A stretch of DNA of 64,000 bases. Origin: Gammaproteobacteria bacterium (lineage in GTDB: Bacteria; Pseudomonadota; Gammaproteobacteria; JAADJB01). Below, piece by piece: positions 49,676 through 55,958 of the stretch; the first letter of the stretch is position 1; each line of letters begins with the position of its first letter. Where the stretch lies: positions 1 to 64,000 of the forward strand of contig JAADJB010000024.1 in the NCBI GenBank assembly GCA_013151035.1, read 5' to 3'. The notes beneath the pieces are model-generated. The model searched no databases. It had not been told where the DNA came from and saw only the letters and a program-made list of their open reading frames with translations. Both the position numbers and the translations under genes were made by a program.

Positions 49676-50953
49676 CTACCTTTTCTTGGCTTTTTTCCTG
49701 ACGGCGGCCTTTTTGGTAACAACCTTCTTTTTGGATACCGCTTTCTTCTGGGCAACCTTCTTAACGCTAGCCTTCTTTTTGGCAACAACCTTCTTTGGAG
49801 CTGCCTTTTTAGCGACGACCTTCTTTTTGACTACTGCCTTCTTTAGGGCTGCCTTTTTAGCGACAACCTTCTTTTTGACTACTGCCTTCTTTGGGGCTGC
49901 CTTTTTAGCGACGACCTTCTTTTTGGCTACTGTCTTCTTTGGAGCTACCTTTTTAGCGACAACCTTCTTTTTGGCTACTGTCTTCTTTGGGGCTGCCTTT
50001 TTAGCGACAACCTTCTTTTTGGCTACTGTCTTCTTTGGAGCTGCCTTTTTAGCGACGACCTTCTTTTTGGCTACCGCCTTCTTTGGGGCTGCCTTTTTAG
50101 CGATGACCTTCTTTTTGACTACTACCTTCTTTGGGGCTGTCTTTTTAGTGACAACCTTCTTTTTGGCTACCGCCTTCTTTGGAGCAACCTTTTTAACGAT
50201 TCCCTTTTTTTTGGCTACCGCTTTTTTCGGAACAGAGCTTTTACCTGACACTGGATTTTTACCCAATTCCTCCGTTTCTTGATCTTTATCGGCGTTTTTC
50301 TGTTTATTTTTTACACTAGCCTTTGCTACCAACAAACTGCGAGCGACTGAATCCAGGATCTTGACAGCTGCCTTTGCTATCACGGACACATCACCAACAC
50401 CTTGAATGACATGAAGCTTATTTTGCTGCTGATAAGAACCCAATAACGGTACAGTCTGTGTTTCAAAAATTCTCAGACGACTACCGATAATCTCTTCATT
50501 ATCCTCACCTCGATGATGTAAATTACCACCACATTCATCACAACAACCATCCATCCTTGGTGGAGCGGTATAACTATTATAAGGTGTCGCACAATCTTTA
50601 CAGAGATAGCGTCCGGATAGACGCTGCATAATCAGATCAAAATCAACATCTACCTTCAAGCAGACATCCACACCCAGCTCCAACTCTTTCAACATCGCAT
50701 CCAGCATTTCACCCTGGGCTATATTGCGCGGAAAGCTATCAAGGATAAAGCCATTAGTAACATCGGTTTGCTGTAAATAATCCTTCAATGCATCCATGAT
50801 TTGGTCATCGCTGACCAACTGACCTGCGTCCACCTTGGCCATCTTCACAACATCATGAATATAAAGGAGATTATAATGCTTGGCAATACGCCTTGCTTGC
50901 GTACTTTTACCAGAACCTGGCGCCCCTAACAAAACAATCCTCATACCACTCAT
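49676..50953 (-). CDS. adk: adenylate kinase with histone-H1-like lysine-rich tail
   Basis: Transfers phosphate between ATP and AMP. The first 200 residues form a full adenylate kinase: P-loop [20 protein letters not shown]-site [12 protein letters not shown], arginine RLSGRY, and a LID with a four-cysteine zinc site (CKDC ... CCDECGG). A linker (about 205-240) leads to a C-terminal tail of about 185 residues built from ten 16-residue units of the type [16 protein letters not shown], rich in Lys, Ala, Val and Pro. Adenylate kinases are normally about 215 residues. Such tails are known from AlgP and bacterial H1-like proteins, where they bind DNA or polyanions. The kinase core is somewhat divergent (GSGKST rather than GAGKGT), so another adk may exist in the genome. 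Confidence 0.88.
49724..50191. repeat. tandem 48-bp repeat, about ten units, in the adk tail
   Basis: The tail repeats with a strict 16-codon period; the Pro of APKK (or its Leu/Gln substitution) falls at residues 258, 274, 290, 306, 322, 338, 354, 370, 386 and 402. Units differ at a few positions, mostly silent or Ala/Val/Thr changes. Length variation between strains is expected. Confidence 0.9.
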
Positions 50954-51194
50954 CCCCCGAACGCGATAAATATCTTTAATTTATTCTTATGAATTCAACA
51001 AGCTAGCCTCATTGAACACATGATTTTTCTATATTCAATCAGATACTTGATAATATAGCAATAGCGGGAGGCATTAAATTTTTTCCATAACCCTATATAT
51101 AGTTTCTGCTAGTGCCTTTATTGAACAGACATTAAGATGAAATTCGCAATATTTTGCTACTCAAACAAACAAAGTCCATGAAATAGATGAAGTT

Positions 51195-51620
51195 TTGTCG
51201 TATGCTACGCTATTAATTGAATTATCACGCTGGTATAAACGAATACACGCCAGCAAAGCGCAGGTATTTGTGACAACAATCTCTGATTTTAGTGATGCTG
51301 AAATGTGGACTATTAACTCCACCTTACGCGAGCGCTACCAGGAAAAAATTGAGCTGGAACAGGTAGAAACCGAGATGCGTCTCAACCCCTATTCCATTGA
51401 ACCGGTCACTTGCCCCGCTATTTTCTGGGAACGCGATAAATGCCACTTCATTATCTGCAAGACCGGCGACCGCCTGTATCGTTGCCAGTTTTATTATCGC
51501 CTCTACCAGATGTACGGTACCGGTGTTGAAGAATATGACGATCTCTCGGAGTGTATTGTCAGCCTATTACAGGTACAAGCCGATCAAAACCGGCAAGAAG
51601 AGATGGAAGCAAACGAGTAA
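51195..51620 (+). CDS. hypothetical protein, 141 residues
   Basis: Soluble protein starting at TTG 51195 (no ATG in frame upstream). Sequence features: LLIELSRWYKRIHASKAQVF, an EKIELEQVETEMRLNPYSI segment, a cysteine-containing core (TCPAIFWERDKCHFIICKTG), YRCQFYYRLYQMYGTG, and an acidic Gln/Glu-rich C-terminus. I do not recognise a family. It lies between the lysine-tailed adenylate kinase (divergent) and PPi-PFK (42 bp downstream, same strand), so it may be first in the PFK transcript. The start is uncertain. Confidence 0.6.
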   Translation: MSYATLLIELSRWYKRIHASKAQVFVTTISDFSDAEMWTINSTLRERYQEKIELEQVETEMRLNPYSIEPVTCPAIFWERDKCHFIICKTGDRLYRCQFYYRLYQMYGTGVEEYDDLSECIVSLLQVQADQNRQEEMEANE

Positions 51621-51662
51621 ATAAACAGAATTTTTAATCTTTAATAGTAGAGGAATACACAG

Positions 51663-52970
51663 ATGGCCAAAGCAGCACCTAAAAAAGCCGCCAAAAAGGC
51701 AGCTCCAAAGAAGAATGCCTTTTATGCACAATCGGGTGGCGTAACTGCCGTTATTAACGCCAGTGCCTGTGGTCTTATTGAGACCGCACGTCAGCATAAA
51801 AACAAGATTGGCAAGGTCTATGCCGGACGCAACGGTATCATCGGCGCATTGACTGAAGACCTGATCGACACCAGCAAGGAATCCGCACGTTCGATTGCTG
51901 CCCTGCGTCACACCCCAAGTGGTGCCTTTGGTTCATGTCGCTACAAGATGAAGAGCCTGGAAGAAAATCGCCGTGAATATGAACGCCTGATCGAGGTCTT
52001 TGAGGCACATAATATCGGTTACTTCTTCTACAACGGCGGTGGCGATTCTGCTGATACCTGTCTGAAGATTTCCCAGCTATCCAAAAAGATGGGCTACCCC
52101 ATTCAGGCCATCCATGTACCCAAGACGGTTGATAACGATCTACCTATCACTGATAACTGTCCTGGTTTTGGTTCAGTTGCAAAATACATTGCGGTATCCA
52201 CCCGTGAGGCCAGTTTTGATGTCGCCTCCATGTGCAAGACTTCAACCAAGGTATTCGTGCTTGAAGTAATGGGTCGTCATGCTGGCTGGATTGCAGCGGC
52301 AGGTGGTCTGGCATCAACAGATGATTGTGATTTGCCTATCATCATCCTGTTCCCTGAAGTCACCTTTAACCAGACCAAGTTTCTGGCTCTGGTGAAGAAA
52401 AAGGTTAAGGAATATGGCTATTGCTCCATCGTAGTATCCGAGGGTGTACGTGACCGCGCGGGTAAATTCCTGGCTGATACCGGTCTCAAGGATGCCTTTG
52501 GTCACTCCCAACTGGGTGGTGTTGCACCGGTTATCGCTAATCTGGTACGCGATAAACTCGGCCTTAAATACCACTGGGCAGTGGCGGATTATCTACAGCG
52601 TGCTGCCCGCCATGTGGCATCCAAGAATGATGTTGATCAAGCCTACGCCATGGGTAAAGCGGCTGTTGAACTGGCTCTGGCAGGCAAGAATTCAGTGATG
52701 CCTACCGTGGTTCGCACCAACAACAAACCTTACAAATGGAAGATTGGTGAGGCTAAACTGTCGCGTGTAGCCAATGTTGAAAAAATGATGCCCAAGGGCT
52801 TCATCTCCAAAGATGGCTTTGGCATCACCCAGAAGTGCAGAGACTATCTCGAACCACTGATCAAGGGTGAAGATTATCCTCCTTATGGCAAGGATGGCAT
52901 GCCAAAATATATACAGCTAAAGAATGCTCCAGTTAAGAAAAAACTGGATAAAGAGTTTAAGGTCAAGTAG
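51663..52970 (+). CDS. pfp: pyrophosphate-dependent 6-phosphofructokinase
   Basis: Reversible phosphorylation of fructose-6-phosphate with pyrophosphate. The 435 residues contain NGGGDSADTCLKISQLSK and the substrate-site HVPKTVDNDLPITDNCPGFG. The Lys of PKTVDND and the acidic GGDSAD region (in place of GGDGS) mark the PPi-using type. VLEVMGRHAGWIAAAGGLA follows. The first 17 residues, [17 protein letters not shown], are an extra lysine-rich extension; part of its DNA is identical to the tail repeat of the neighbouring adk. With HppA and Ppa encoded downstream, the gene belongs to a pyrophosphate-energy unit. Confidence 0.94.
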   Translation: MAKAAPKKAAKKAAPKKNAFYAQSGGVTAVINASACGLIETARQHKNKIGKVYAGRNGIIGALTEDLIDTSKESARSIAALRHTPSGAFGSCRYKMKSLEENRREYERLIEVFEAHNIGYFFYNGGGDSADTCLKISQLSKKMGYPIQAIHVPKTVDNDLPITDNCPGFGSVAKYIAVSTREASFDVASMCKTSTKVFVLEVMGRHAGWIAAAGGLASTDDCDLPIIILFPEVTFNQTKFLALVKKKVKEYGYCSIVVSEGVRDRAGKFLADTGLKDAFGHSQLGGVAPVIANLVRDKLGLKYHWAVADYLQRAARHVASKNDVDQAYAMGKAAVELALAGKNSVMPTVVRTNNKPYKWKIGEAKLSRVANVEKMMPKGFISKDGFGITQKCRDYLEPLIKGEDYPPYGKDGMPKYIQLKNAPVKKKLDKEFKVK

Positions 52971-53266: not shown

Positions 53267-55282
53267 ATGTCACCGGAACTTATATTTGCACTTGGCAGCG
53301 CGGTAGCTGCAATTGTCTACGGGATCTTCTCGATCCAGTGGGTTATGAACAAACCCACTGGCAATGATCGCATGCGTGAAATTGCTGCCGCCATTCAGGA
53401 TGGTGCTAATGCCTATCTTAACCGTCAATACGCTACCATCAGTATGACTGGTGTCATCCTGCTGGTTCTGATTGGCATGTTTATCGGCTGGCATACAGCC
53501 ATTGGCTTTGCCATTGGCGCAATCTTCTCTGGTCTCACCGGTTATATCGGCATGAACATCTCGGTGCGTTCTAACCTGCGTACCGCAGAGGCGGCTAATG
53601 AAGGACTTAACGCAGCGATGCAAGTTGCCTTCCGTGGCGGTGCCATTACTGGCATGCTGGTTGTTGGCCTGGCTCTCCTCGGTGTTGCTGGTTACTACGC
53701 CATCCTGCTTGACATGGGTGTCGCTGATCCCATTCATCCACTGATTGGCCTTGCCTTTGGTGGTTCCCTGATCTCTATCTTTGCCCGACTCGGTGGCGGC
53801 ATCTTTACCAAGGGTGCTGACGTCGGTGCCGATATCGTGGGTAAGGTTGAAGCGGGTATCCCTGAGGATGACCCACGCAACCCTGCCGTAATTGCTGATA
53901 ACGTTGGCGACAATGTGGGTGATTGTGCCGGCATGGCCGCTGATCTGTTCGAGACCTATGCGGTAACCGTTATTGCAACTATGTTACTCGGTGGTCTGCT
54001 ACTACCCGATGCAGGTACTACTGTAGCCACCTACCCACTGGTATTAGGTGGCGTATCCATCATTGCCTGCATCATCGGCACATTCTTCGTTAAGACACGT
54101 GAAGGCGGCAAGATCATGAACGCCCTGTATCGCGGACTGGCTGTTGCCGGTGCCCTTTCAGCCATTGCCTTTTACTTCGTAACCAATGCCGTTATGGGCG
54201 ATGTTGCCGGTGTCTCCAGCATGAACTTGTACTGGTGTTCACTGATTGGTCTGGCATTAACCGCAGCCATGGTGGTCATCACCGAATACTACACAGCAAC
54301 GGAATACAGCCCGGTACGGCATATCGCTGAGGCCTCCACCACGGGTGATGGCACCAACGTGATTGCTGGTCTGGGTGTATCCATGAAATCCACAGCGGCA
54401 CCGGTACTGGCTGTTTGTGCGGCCATCTGGGGTTCCTATGAACTCTCAGGTTTATATGGTATCGCAATTGCAGCAACCGCCATGCTCTCCATGACCGGCA
54501 TTATTGTTGCGCTGGATGCCTATGGCCCTATCACCGATAATGCGGGTGGTATTGCCGAGATGGCTGACCTGGATGAGAAGATCCGTAACATTACCGATCC
54601 ACTGGATGCTGTGGGTAACACCACCAAGGCAGTCACCAAGGGTTATGCCATTGGTTCTGCCGGACTGGCAGCACTGGTACTGTTTGCTGATTATACCCAT
54701 GCTCTCACCAATGCAGGTCACACCGATCTGAACTTCTCGCTTGATAATCACATGGTTATTATCGGTTTGTTCATTGGTGGTATGGTGCCTTATCTGTTTG
54801 GTGCTATGGCAATGGAAGCCGTGGGACGCGCGGCTGGTGGTATTGTCAATGAGGTACGTCGCCAGTTTAAGGAAATGCCGGGTATCATGGATTACACACA
54901 AAAACCGGATTACTCCCGTGCGGTTGACATGCTGACCAAGGCCGCCATTAAAGAAATGATTGTACCCTCACTGCTACCCGTTCTAGCACCTGTTCTAGTC
55001 GGCCTGACCCTGGGTAAAGAGGCCCTCGGTGGCATGCTGATTGGTACCATTGTGACCGGTCTGTTCCTGGCAATCTCCATGACCACTGGTGGTGGTGCCT
55101 GGGATAACGCCAAGAAATACATCGAGGATGGTCACTTTGGTGGCAAGGGTAGCGATGCTCACAAGGCAGCAGTGACCGGTGATACTGTGGGTGATCCCTA
55201 CAAAGACACCGCAGGTCCTGCGATTAATCCTTTGATCAAGATCATTAATATTGTCGCCTTGATGATTGTGCCTATCTTGTAG
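53267..55282 (+). CDS. hppA: membrane proton-translocating pyrophosphatase, K+-independent type
   Basis: Couples hydrolysis of pyrophosphate to proton pumping across the inner membrane, and can run in reverse. The 671 residues form about 16 helices. Substrate motifs: [40 protein letters not shown] and the C-terminal [20 protein letters not shown]. The segment [16 protein letters not shown] has Lys where potassium-dependent enzymes have Ala, so it is of the potassium-independent proton-pumping class. Ribosome-binding site is within CTTAGGGGGGTC. It follows pfp, as known from methanotrophs and sulphur-oxidising symbionts. Confidence 0.96.
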
Positions 55283-55356: not shown

Positions 55357-55393
55357 AAGAAGGGTCGGTTATAATAACCGACCCTTCTTTTTT
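55357..55393 (+). terminator. strong terminator hairpin directly before ppa (possible attenuator)
   Basis: AAGAAGGGTCGGTT and AACCGACCCTTCTT form a perfect 14-bp stem with loop ATAAT, followed by TTTT. Its end lies only 16 bp before the ppa start codon. The loop region also spells TATAAT (55370-55375), a perfect -10 element, so a promoter could be hidden in the hairpin. Either read-through or that promoter must feed ppa. Confidence 0.8.
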
Positions 55394-55409
55394 GCTGGCA
55401 GGAAATAAA

Positions 55410-55958
55410 ATGAACCTCGATCGCGTCGAATCCGGAACCAATGTCCCAGATGATGTTAATGTCATCATCGAGATTCCTGCCCACAGTGACCCGGTAAAAT
55501 ATGAGGTCGATAAAAAAACCGGTGCCATGTTCGTCGACCGTTTCATGAATACCGCCATGCACTATCCCTGTAATTATGGCTATATCCCGCACACCCTGTC
55601 ACCGGATGGTGACCCTGCCGATGTACTGGTTGTTACACCTGTTCCACTGATTAGTGGCTCAGTCATCCAATGCCGCCCCGTGGGTGTGCTCAAGATGACC
55701 GATGAGTCTGGCGAAGACGGCAAGATCCTCGCAGTACCGATTGATAAACTCTGCATATCCTTTAGAGCGGTAAAGGGCATCAAGGACATGCCTCAGTTAT
55801 TACTGGATCAGATTGCCCACTTCTTTGAACACTACAAGGATCTGGAAGCAGGCAAATGGGTCAAGATTGAGGGCTGGTTTGATGTCGAAGAGGCCAAAAA
55901 AGAGATATTAGACAGTATCAAGACCTATCAGGAAGCCCCTGAAAAGCCCCATTTTTAA
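55410..55958 (+). CDS. ppa: soluble inorganic pyrophosphatase
   Basis: Family I pyrophosphatase hydrolysing PPi to phosphate. About 182 residues. Motifs: IVEIPAH-like [38 protein letters not shown], with the three metal-binding aspartates of DGDPADVLV, and VDKLC-like [32 protein letters not shown] frame starts earlier, but the CAGGAA ribosome-binding site fits ATG 55410 ([11 protein letters not shown]). It sits behind a terminator-like hairpin, so expression may be conditional. Soluble PPase would compete with HppA and PPi-PFK for pyrophosphate, which gives a reason for control. Confidence 0.95.

Follow-up and report, generated by a model that had tools for sequence, protein, structure and literature searches.

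Among described systems, the KPAA tails of AlgP and PhaF in Pseudomonas come closest to the feature analysed here. These tails consist of disordered K/A/P repeats of H1-like composition appended to another domain. AlgP associates with polyphosphate (polyP) granules, and without its 154-aa KPAA tail the granules are not evenly spaced (PMC9239181). Binding of polyP is also described for the E. coli proteins YihI and RNase R, at regions rich in lysine (PMC12345225), and lysine-rich low-complexity regions are described as typical of DNA-binding proteins (PMC6821194).

The gene studied here, pfp, encodes a PPi-dependent 6-phosphofructokinase (PPi-PFK) and lies in a window of 64,000 nucleotides from a gammaproteobacterium (assembly GCA_013151035.1, contig JAADJB010000024.1, positions 1 to 64,000 of the forward strand). 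Its product starts with a leader that is similar to the AlgP/PhaF tails in composition. The AlgP tail is C-terminal and 154 aa long, whereas the leader is N-terminal, has only 17 residues and sits on a glycolytic enzyme. An AlphaFold model of the PPi-PFK, for which 12 sequences were supplied, was of low quality (mean pLDDT 50.8 overall), gave no useful prediction of disorder and was not used for conclusions.

Near pfp lies a paralogue of adenylate kinase (ADK) with a long tail. The family NF010381 (PRK13808), which we take to comprise long-tailed ADK, would share with it an ADK core followed by a long basic C-terminal tail, and the window ADK scores 84.7 bits with that model at a cut-off of 426. 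The first-pass annotation had proposed that DNA of the adk tail repeat was copied into the 5' end of pfp by recombination, giving both energy enzymes the same polybasic tag. From the comparison of sequences reported below, we consider it rather probable that the pfp leader represents a K/A/P-rich extension of histone-H1-like kind, which varies between lineages and has grown at the N-terminus on a short basic start (MAKK or similar).

The pfp gene, its leader and its neighbours

The pfp gene (51663-52970, + strand) runs from an ATG at 51663 to a stop codon at 52970 and encodes 435 aa. The product matches PF00365 (E 1.5e-46), and its core is a clear member of the PRK14072 subfamily of PPi-PFK (NF010675, 654.7 bits against a cut-off of 273, residues 16-430). 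The match to this model begins at residue 16, and the leader stands outside it. Judging by this family membership and by the neighbouring hppA, a membrane pyrophosphatase gene on the 3' side of pfp (53267-55282, + strand; PF03030, E 3e-273), PPi is the likely phosphoryl donor of the enzyme. The leader (51663-51713, + strand) is rich in lysine, alanine and proline, carries 7 lysines in its 17 residues and lengthens the short basic start that family members usually have. Since no in-frame ATG, GTG or TTG besides the ATG at 51663 was found before the conserved core, and GAGG stands immediately 5' of this ATG, the leader belongs to the PPi-PFK protein, and the lysine-rich extension described in the first-pass annotation was confirmed.

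The tailed adk paralogue (49676-50953, - strand, 425 aa) matches PF00406 (E 2.3e-30) and stays below the cut-offs of NF001380 and TIGR01351. Its lysine-rich C-terminal tail of 215 residues has an H1-like composition and is built from 10.8 copies of a 48-bp unit (49703-50218, - strand); a tandem 48-bp array was found solely at this position. The genome (2.4 Mb, 54 contigs) carries a second, untailed adk (G000:C53:60184-60798). The tailed adk and pfp had been described as divergent neighbours less than 1 kb apart, and their start codons are indeed 709 bp apart with a small ORF in between, while the tail units that match the leader lie 1.6-1.9 kb from it in inverted orientation. The small ORF (about 51270-51620, + strand, GTG start inferred by eye) gave no Pfam or NCBIfam match when 51285-51620 was used as the query, and look-alikes recognized by eye occupy the same position in two relatives (L060, 5507-5863, and L078). 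A promoter scan of 50900-51720 returned no sigma-70-like site.

Shared DNA of the leader and the adk tail

The second half of the leader (51689-51714, + strand) is identical to an adk tail unit at 25 of 26 nt, slightly stronger than the 21-nt identity reported in the first-pass annotation. The closest unit (50029-50054, - strand; 26 nt at 96% identity) is identical over 50030-50050 and a second unit (49790-49814, - strand) over 49790-49810, both being exact copies of 51693-51713, which reads AAAAAGGCAGCTCCAAAGAAG. The first half of the leader has no match, its KAAPKKA words agreeing at 10-11 of 15 nt only. A full 48-bp adk unit was not found in the leader, the match being limited to 26 nt.

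Genome-wide, the match has an E-value of 3.4e-5, and plain chance at the scale of the genome was rejected on this value. Because both genes encode KKAAPKK, the right question is how often the same peptide gives the same DNA, and conditional tests with the peptide fixed were performed because the shared peptide supplies most of the strength of that E-value. The probability of a shared run of at least 21 nt was 0.0044 with the codon use of 38 ORFs of the window, 0.0097 when the leader's own synonymous codons were shuffled and 0.020 with the codon use of the adk tail. The pfp leader has 7 five-residue words in common with the adk tail, and 3 of them, all in the second half, are identical in DNA. 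Two other lysine-rich genes of the same genome, encoding a stand-alone H1-like protein and DksA, served as controls; the H1-like gene and the dksA leader have 33 and 11 five-residue words in common with the adk tail, respectively, and 0 of these 44 is identical in DNA. Control windows of 17 codons that shared more than 14 nt with the tail numbered 0 of 108 in the H1-like gene and 0 of 41 in the dksA leader.

At the codon level, an adk unit matches the leader's second half unusually well compared with these control genes; a local copy is therefore plausible, and we rate it somewhat short of an even chance. Template switching or recombination would have placed an inverted copy of a piece of an adk tail unit at the 5' end of pfp, where it now forms the leader's second half. 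The 3 of 7 DNA-identical words against 0 of 44 in the controls point in this direction, as does the finding that the leader matches the adk tail of its own genome better than all 52 other tails. Tailed adk genes are commoner in the sample than extended pfp leaders, and for this reason adk would be the likelier donor. What had been proposed is plausible but unproven for the second half, the first half is unmatched, and the copies are inverted. Several further points count against copying. The final AAGAAG probably encodes the KK that the family had ancestrally. When 34 leaders were compared with their own adk tails, the window pfp gave the lowest P (0.0053, the next being 0.18), but this becomes about 0.17 after correction for 34 tests, and no DNA resemblance to the adk tail of the same genome was seen for any of the 33 remaining leaders. 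Some leaders in this test (L048, L070, L093, L140 and others) were cut too far upstream and were recut for the count of extended leaders given below. Moreover, the window genome is the sole representative of its order in the comparison, with no close relative to date the event. Stepwise growth of the leader alone, on the other hand, is disfavoured by a 21-nt identity above the level usual for independent origin (P 0.004-0.02).

Leaders and adenylate kinases among relatives

Two sets of relatives were compared, namely 94 genomes from different families of the class, own genome included, and the best 80 named loci among at least 569 relatives found in one scan. After removal of identical cores and of one locus with an empty leader (L230), 147 loci were kept, and 146 entered the tree after one short row was dropped. 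A tailed adk was found for 53 of the 147 loci, 43 of them having it beside pfp on the opposite strand, while among the best 80 named loci of at least 569 relatives 35 have an untailed adk on pfp's own strand instead. A tailed adk likewise adjoins pfp in L052, from the cultured relative Thiohalobacter thiocyanaticus. In one genome (G101, L194) the repeat at the end of the adk tail is a different one, GQEESSQEKDGEEK, as though the reading frame had shifted within the lysine-rich array. The open-licence papers searched held nothing on point about tailed ADK or a PPi-PFK/ADK cluster.

Short basic starts such as MAKK are present in most pfp genes, with or without a tailed adk; that they are the rule even where adk is untailed supports our view of the leader as an extension of such a start. 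Extended leaders, defined by a working cut-off of at least 11 residues with at least 4 K/R, are scattered over 13 of the 146 rows (the window, L136, L152, L170, L176, L060, L066, L067, L078, L079, L080, L093 and L120), which supports the same view. Neither their residues nor their codons are alike from one leader to the next, and both length and sequence are highly variable among relatives. The PPi-PFK leaders of L093 (5881-6003) and L120 (5839-6009) comprise 41 and 57 residues, respectively, are almost wholly basic and are far longer than that of the window.

A tailed adk stands beside pfp in only 3 of these 13 rows (the window, L136 and L066). It lies elsewhere in the genome in 6 rows, where the 6 kb upstream of pfp (L060, L067, L080, L093 and L120) or about 2.8 kb (L170) are without adk. 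No tailed adk was found in L078, L152 and L176, and the L078 genome, whose completeness is not given, yielded a single adk, which is untailed; L079, in which the contig ends 0.9 kb upstream of pfp, was left unassigned. As a general account of extended leaders, copying from adk is contradicted by leaders with other codons, both in the three rows in which no tailed adk was found and in the six whose tailed adk lies elsewhere; the first-pass annotation had named such a result as favouring independent origin. An early idea that the tail is carried either on adk or on pfp was rejected too, as in a genome-wide look most long-leader genomes have tailed adk genes.

A quick tree was built from the first 190 core residues (146 rows, 12 of 143 inner branches starred). 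On the best tree the extended-leader label needs at least 7 changes, of which well-supported branches force at least 3. The extended leaders cluster on this tree (0 of 500 shuffles as low), therefore some inheritance is indicated, and this counts against our reading of a lineage-variable extension.

Another explanation, also contained in the first-pass annotation, is that one and the same polybasic tag places ADK and PPi-PFK at a shared site. The pairing of the two genes is real, with a tailed adk beside pfp at 43 of 147 loci, and in G006, the only genome of its order in the comparison, PPi-PFK and ADK are encoded in one 634-aa frame (L223:533-2434, G006:C1:233132-235033; PFK at 7-322 and ADK at 422-601 by Pfam), a natural fusion which speaks for a functional connection between them. 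However, 40 of the 43 loci with an adjoining tailed adk have a short pfp leader only, the ADK part of the G006 fusion is untailed, and similar tails are present on DksA and the H1-like protein of the window genome. A tag that places both enzymes at one site is quite unlikely on this evidence.

The first-pass annotation had suggested testing whether the tag on pfp correlates with a tailed adk. Leader charge was higher with a tailed adk in 70 genomes of the class when kinship was ignored (Fisher, 8/6 vs 14/42, p 0.028; Mann-Whitney, p 0.0003; G086, whose tail is truncated where its contig stops, was manually scored as tailed), but a kinship-aware test had 3 independent pairs only and no power. 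The association is weak and may be real. It speaks for a shared tag to some degree, and because leader charge is statistically linked to the tailed adk, the tags on pfp and adk may not be independent, which is a second point against our reading of the leader.

H1-like tails in the genome and possible roles of the leader

Used as a query against its own genome, the adk tail retrieved DksA and the H1-like gene, both of which carry KAAP-type tails as well. DksA (L245:1072-1665, G000:C14) has a lysine-rich N-terminal extension of about 80 residues before the Pfam domain, and the stand-alone H1-like lysine-rich protein (L232; G000:C53, from about 72722) has 164 residues; its gene contains a run of N. 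Because these two proteins carry similar tails, the tag is not confined to energy enzymes, and a tag marking only adk and PPi-PFK was rejected. Both the adk tail and the DksA leader are similar in composition to the HC2 family (PF07382) but score below its curated gathering cut-off of 40 bits (37.6 and 33.7 bits, respectively), and the pfp protein gave no match to the HC2 profile, which weighs against our reading of the leader.

A DksA match was obtained in 88 of the 94 genomes, and N-termini were read for 70, own genome included. In 30 of the 70, DksA has at its N-terminus a stretch of 20 aa or longer that contains at least 12 K/R, namely in 14 of 23 with a tailed adk vs 16 of 47 without (Fisher, p 0.042), the leader boundaries being rough (e.g. 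for G011, G070 and G017, where the whole open frame was used although its start is uncertain). Among open-licence papers, nothing on point was found about a lysine-rich DksA extension.

Such tails may be a wider habit of these bacteria, appearing at the C-terminus of the adk paralogue, at the N-terminus of DksA, on the H1-like protein that stands alone and, in scattered cases, on PPi-PFK. On PPi-PFK the basic leader would have grown stepwise, with its second half here possibly copied from an adk tail unit. As a disordered positive arm, the leader could dock PPi-PFK weakly on polyanions, be it the nucleoid, RNA or polyP; a polyphosphate kinase is encoded in the genome. By analogy with the described lysine-rich tails, we put this tethering role forward tentatively, and a leader of 17 residues with 7 lysines may not suffice for it. 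About equally likely is a neutral low-complexity leader, for which small in-frame expansions before the first PFK strand would be tolerated and drift, with at most a role in translation initiation; copying from adk is compatible with either. The large variation of leaders among relatives and the unlikeness of the extended leaders to one another, in residues as in codons, fit neutrality. Against it, the extended leaders are consistently rich in lysine and alanine (partly by the definition used), the two longest (L093 and L120) are almost wholly basic, and between the window's two copies of KAAPKK all differences are synonymous, as if the peptide mattered.

If the tails do tether, PPi-PFK, the ADK paralogue and DksA would be held on polyanions in many Gammaproteobacteria, and the gain or loss of a tail on one enzyme would offer a natural experiment on the origin of localisation tags. 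If they do not, the locus advises caution, as a 21-nt identity between lysine-rich genes would be much weaker evidence of copying than is apparent because the peptide fixes most of it.

A more far-reaching picture, which we regard as quite improbable, joins the tailed ADK paralogue, PPi-PFK and the membrane pyrophosphatase into a PPi/AMP energy module that interchangeable H1-like tails would anchor to the nucleoid or to polyP granules; tail segments would be passed between neighbouring genes by short inverted copying, and the pfp leader would be a fresh case. Near pfp and the membrane pyrophosphatase gene, the window holds at 55392-55958 a further stretch resembling what we take to be a soluble inorganic pyrophosphatase.
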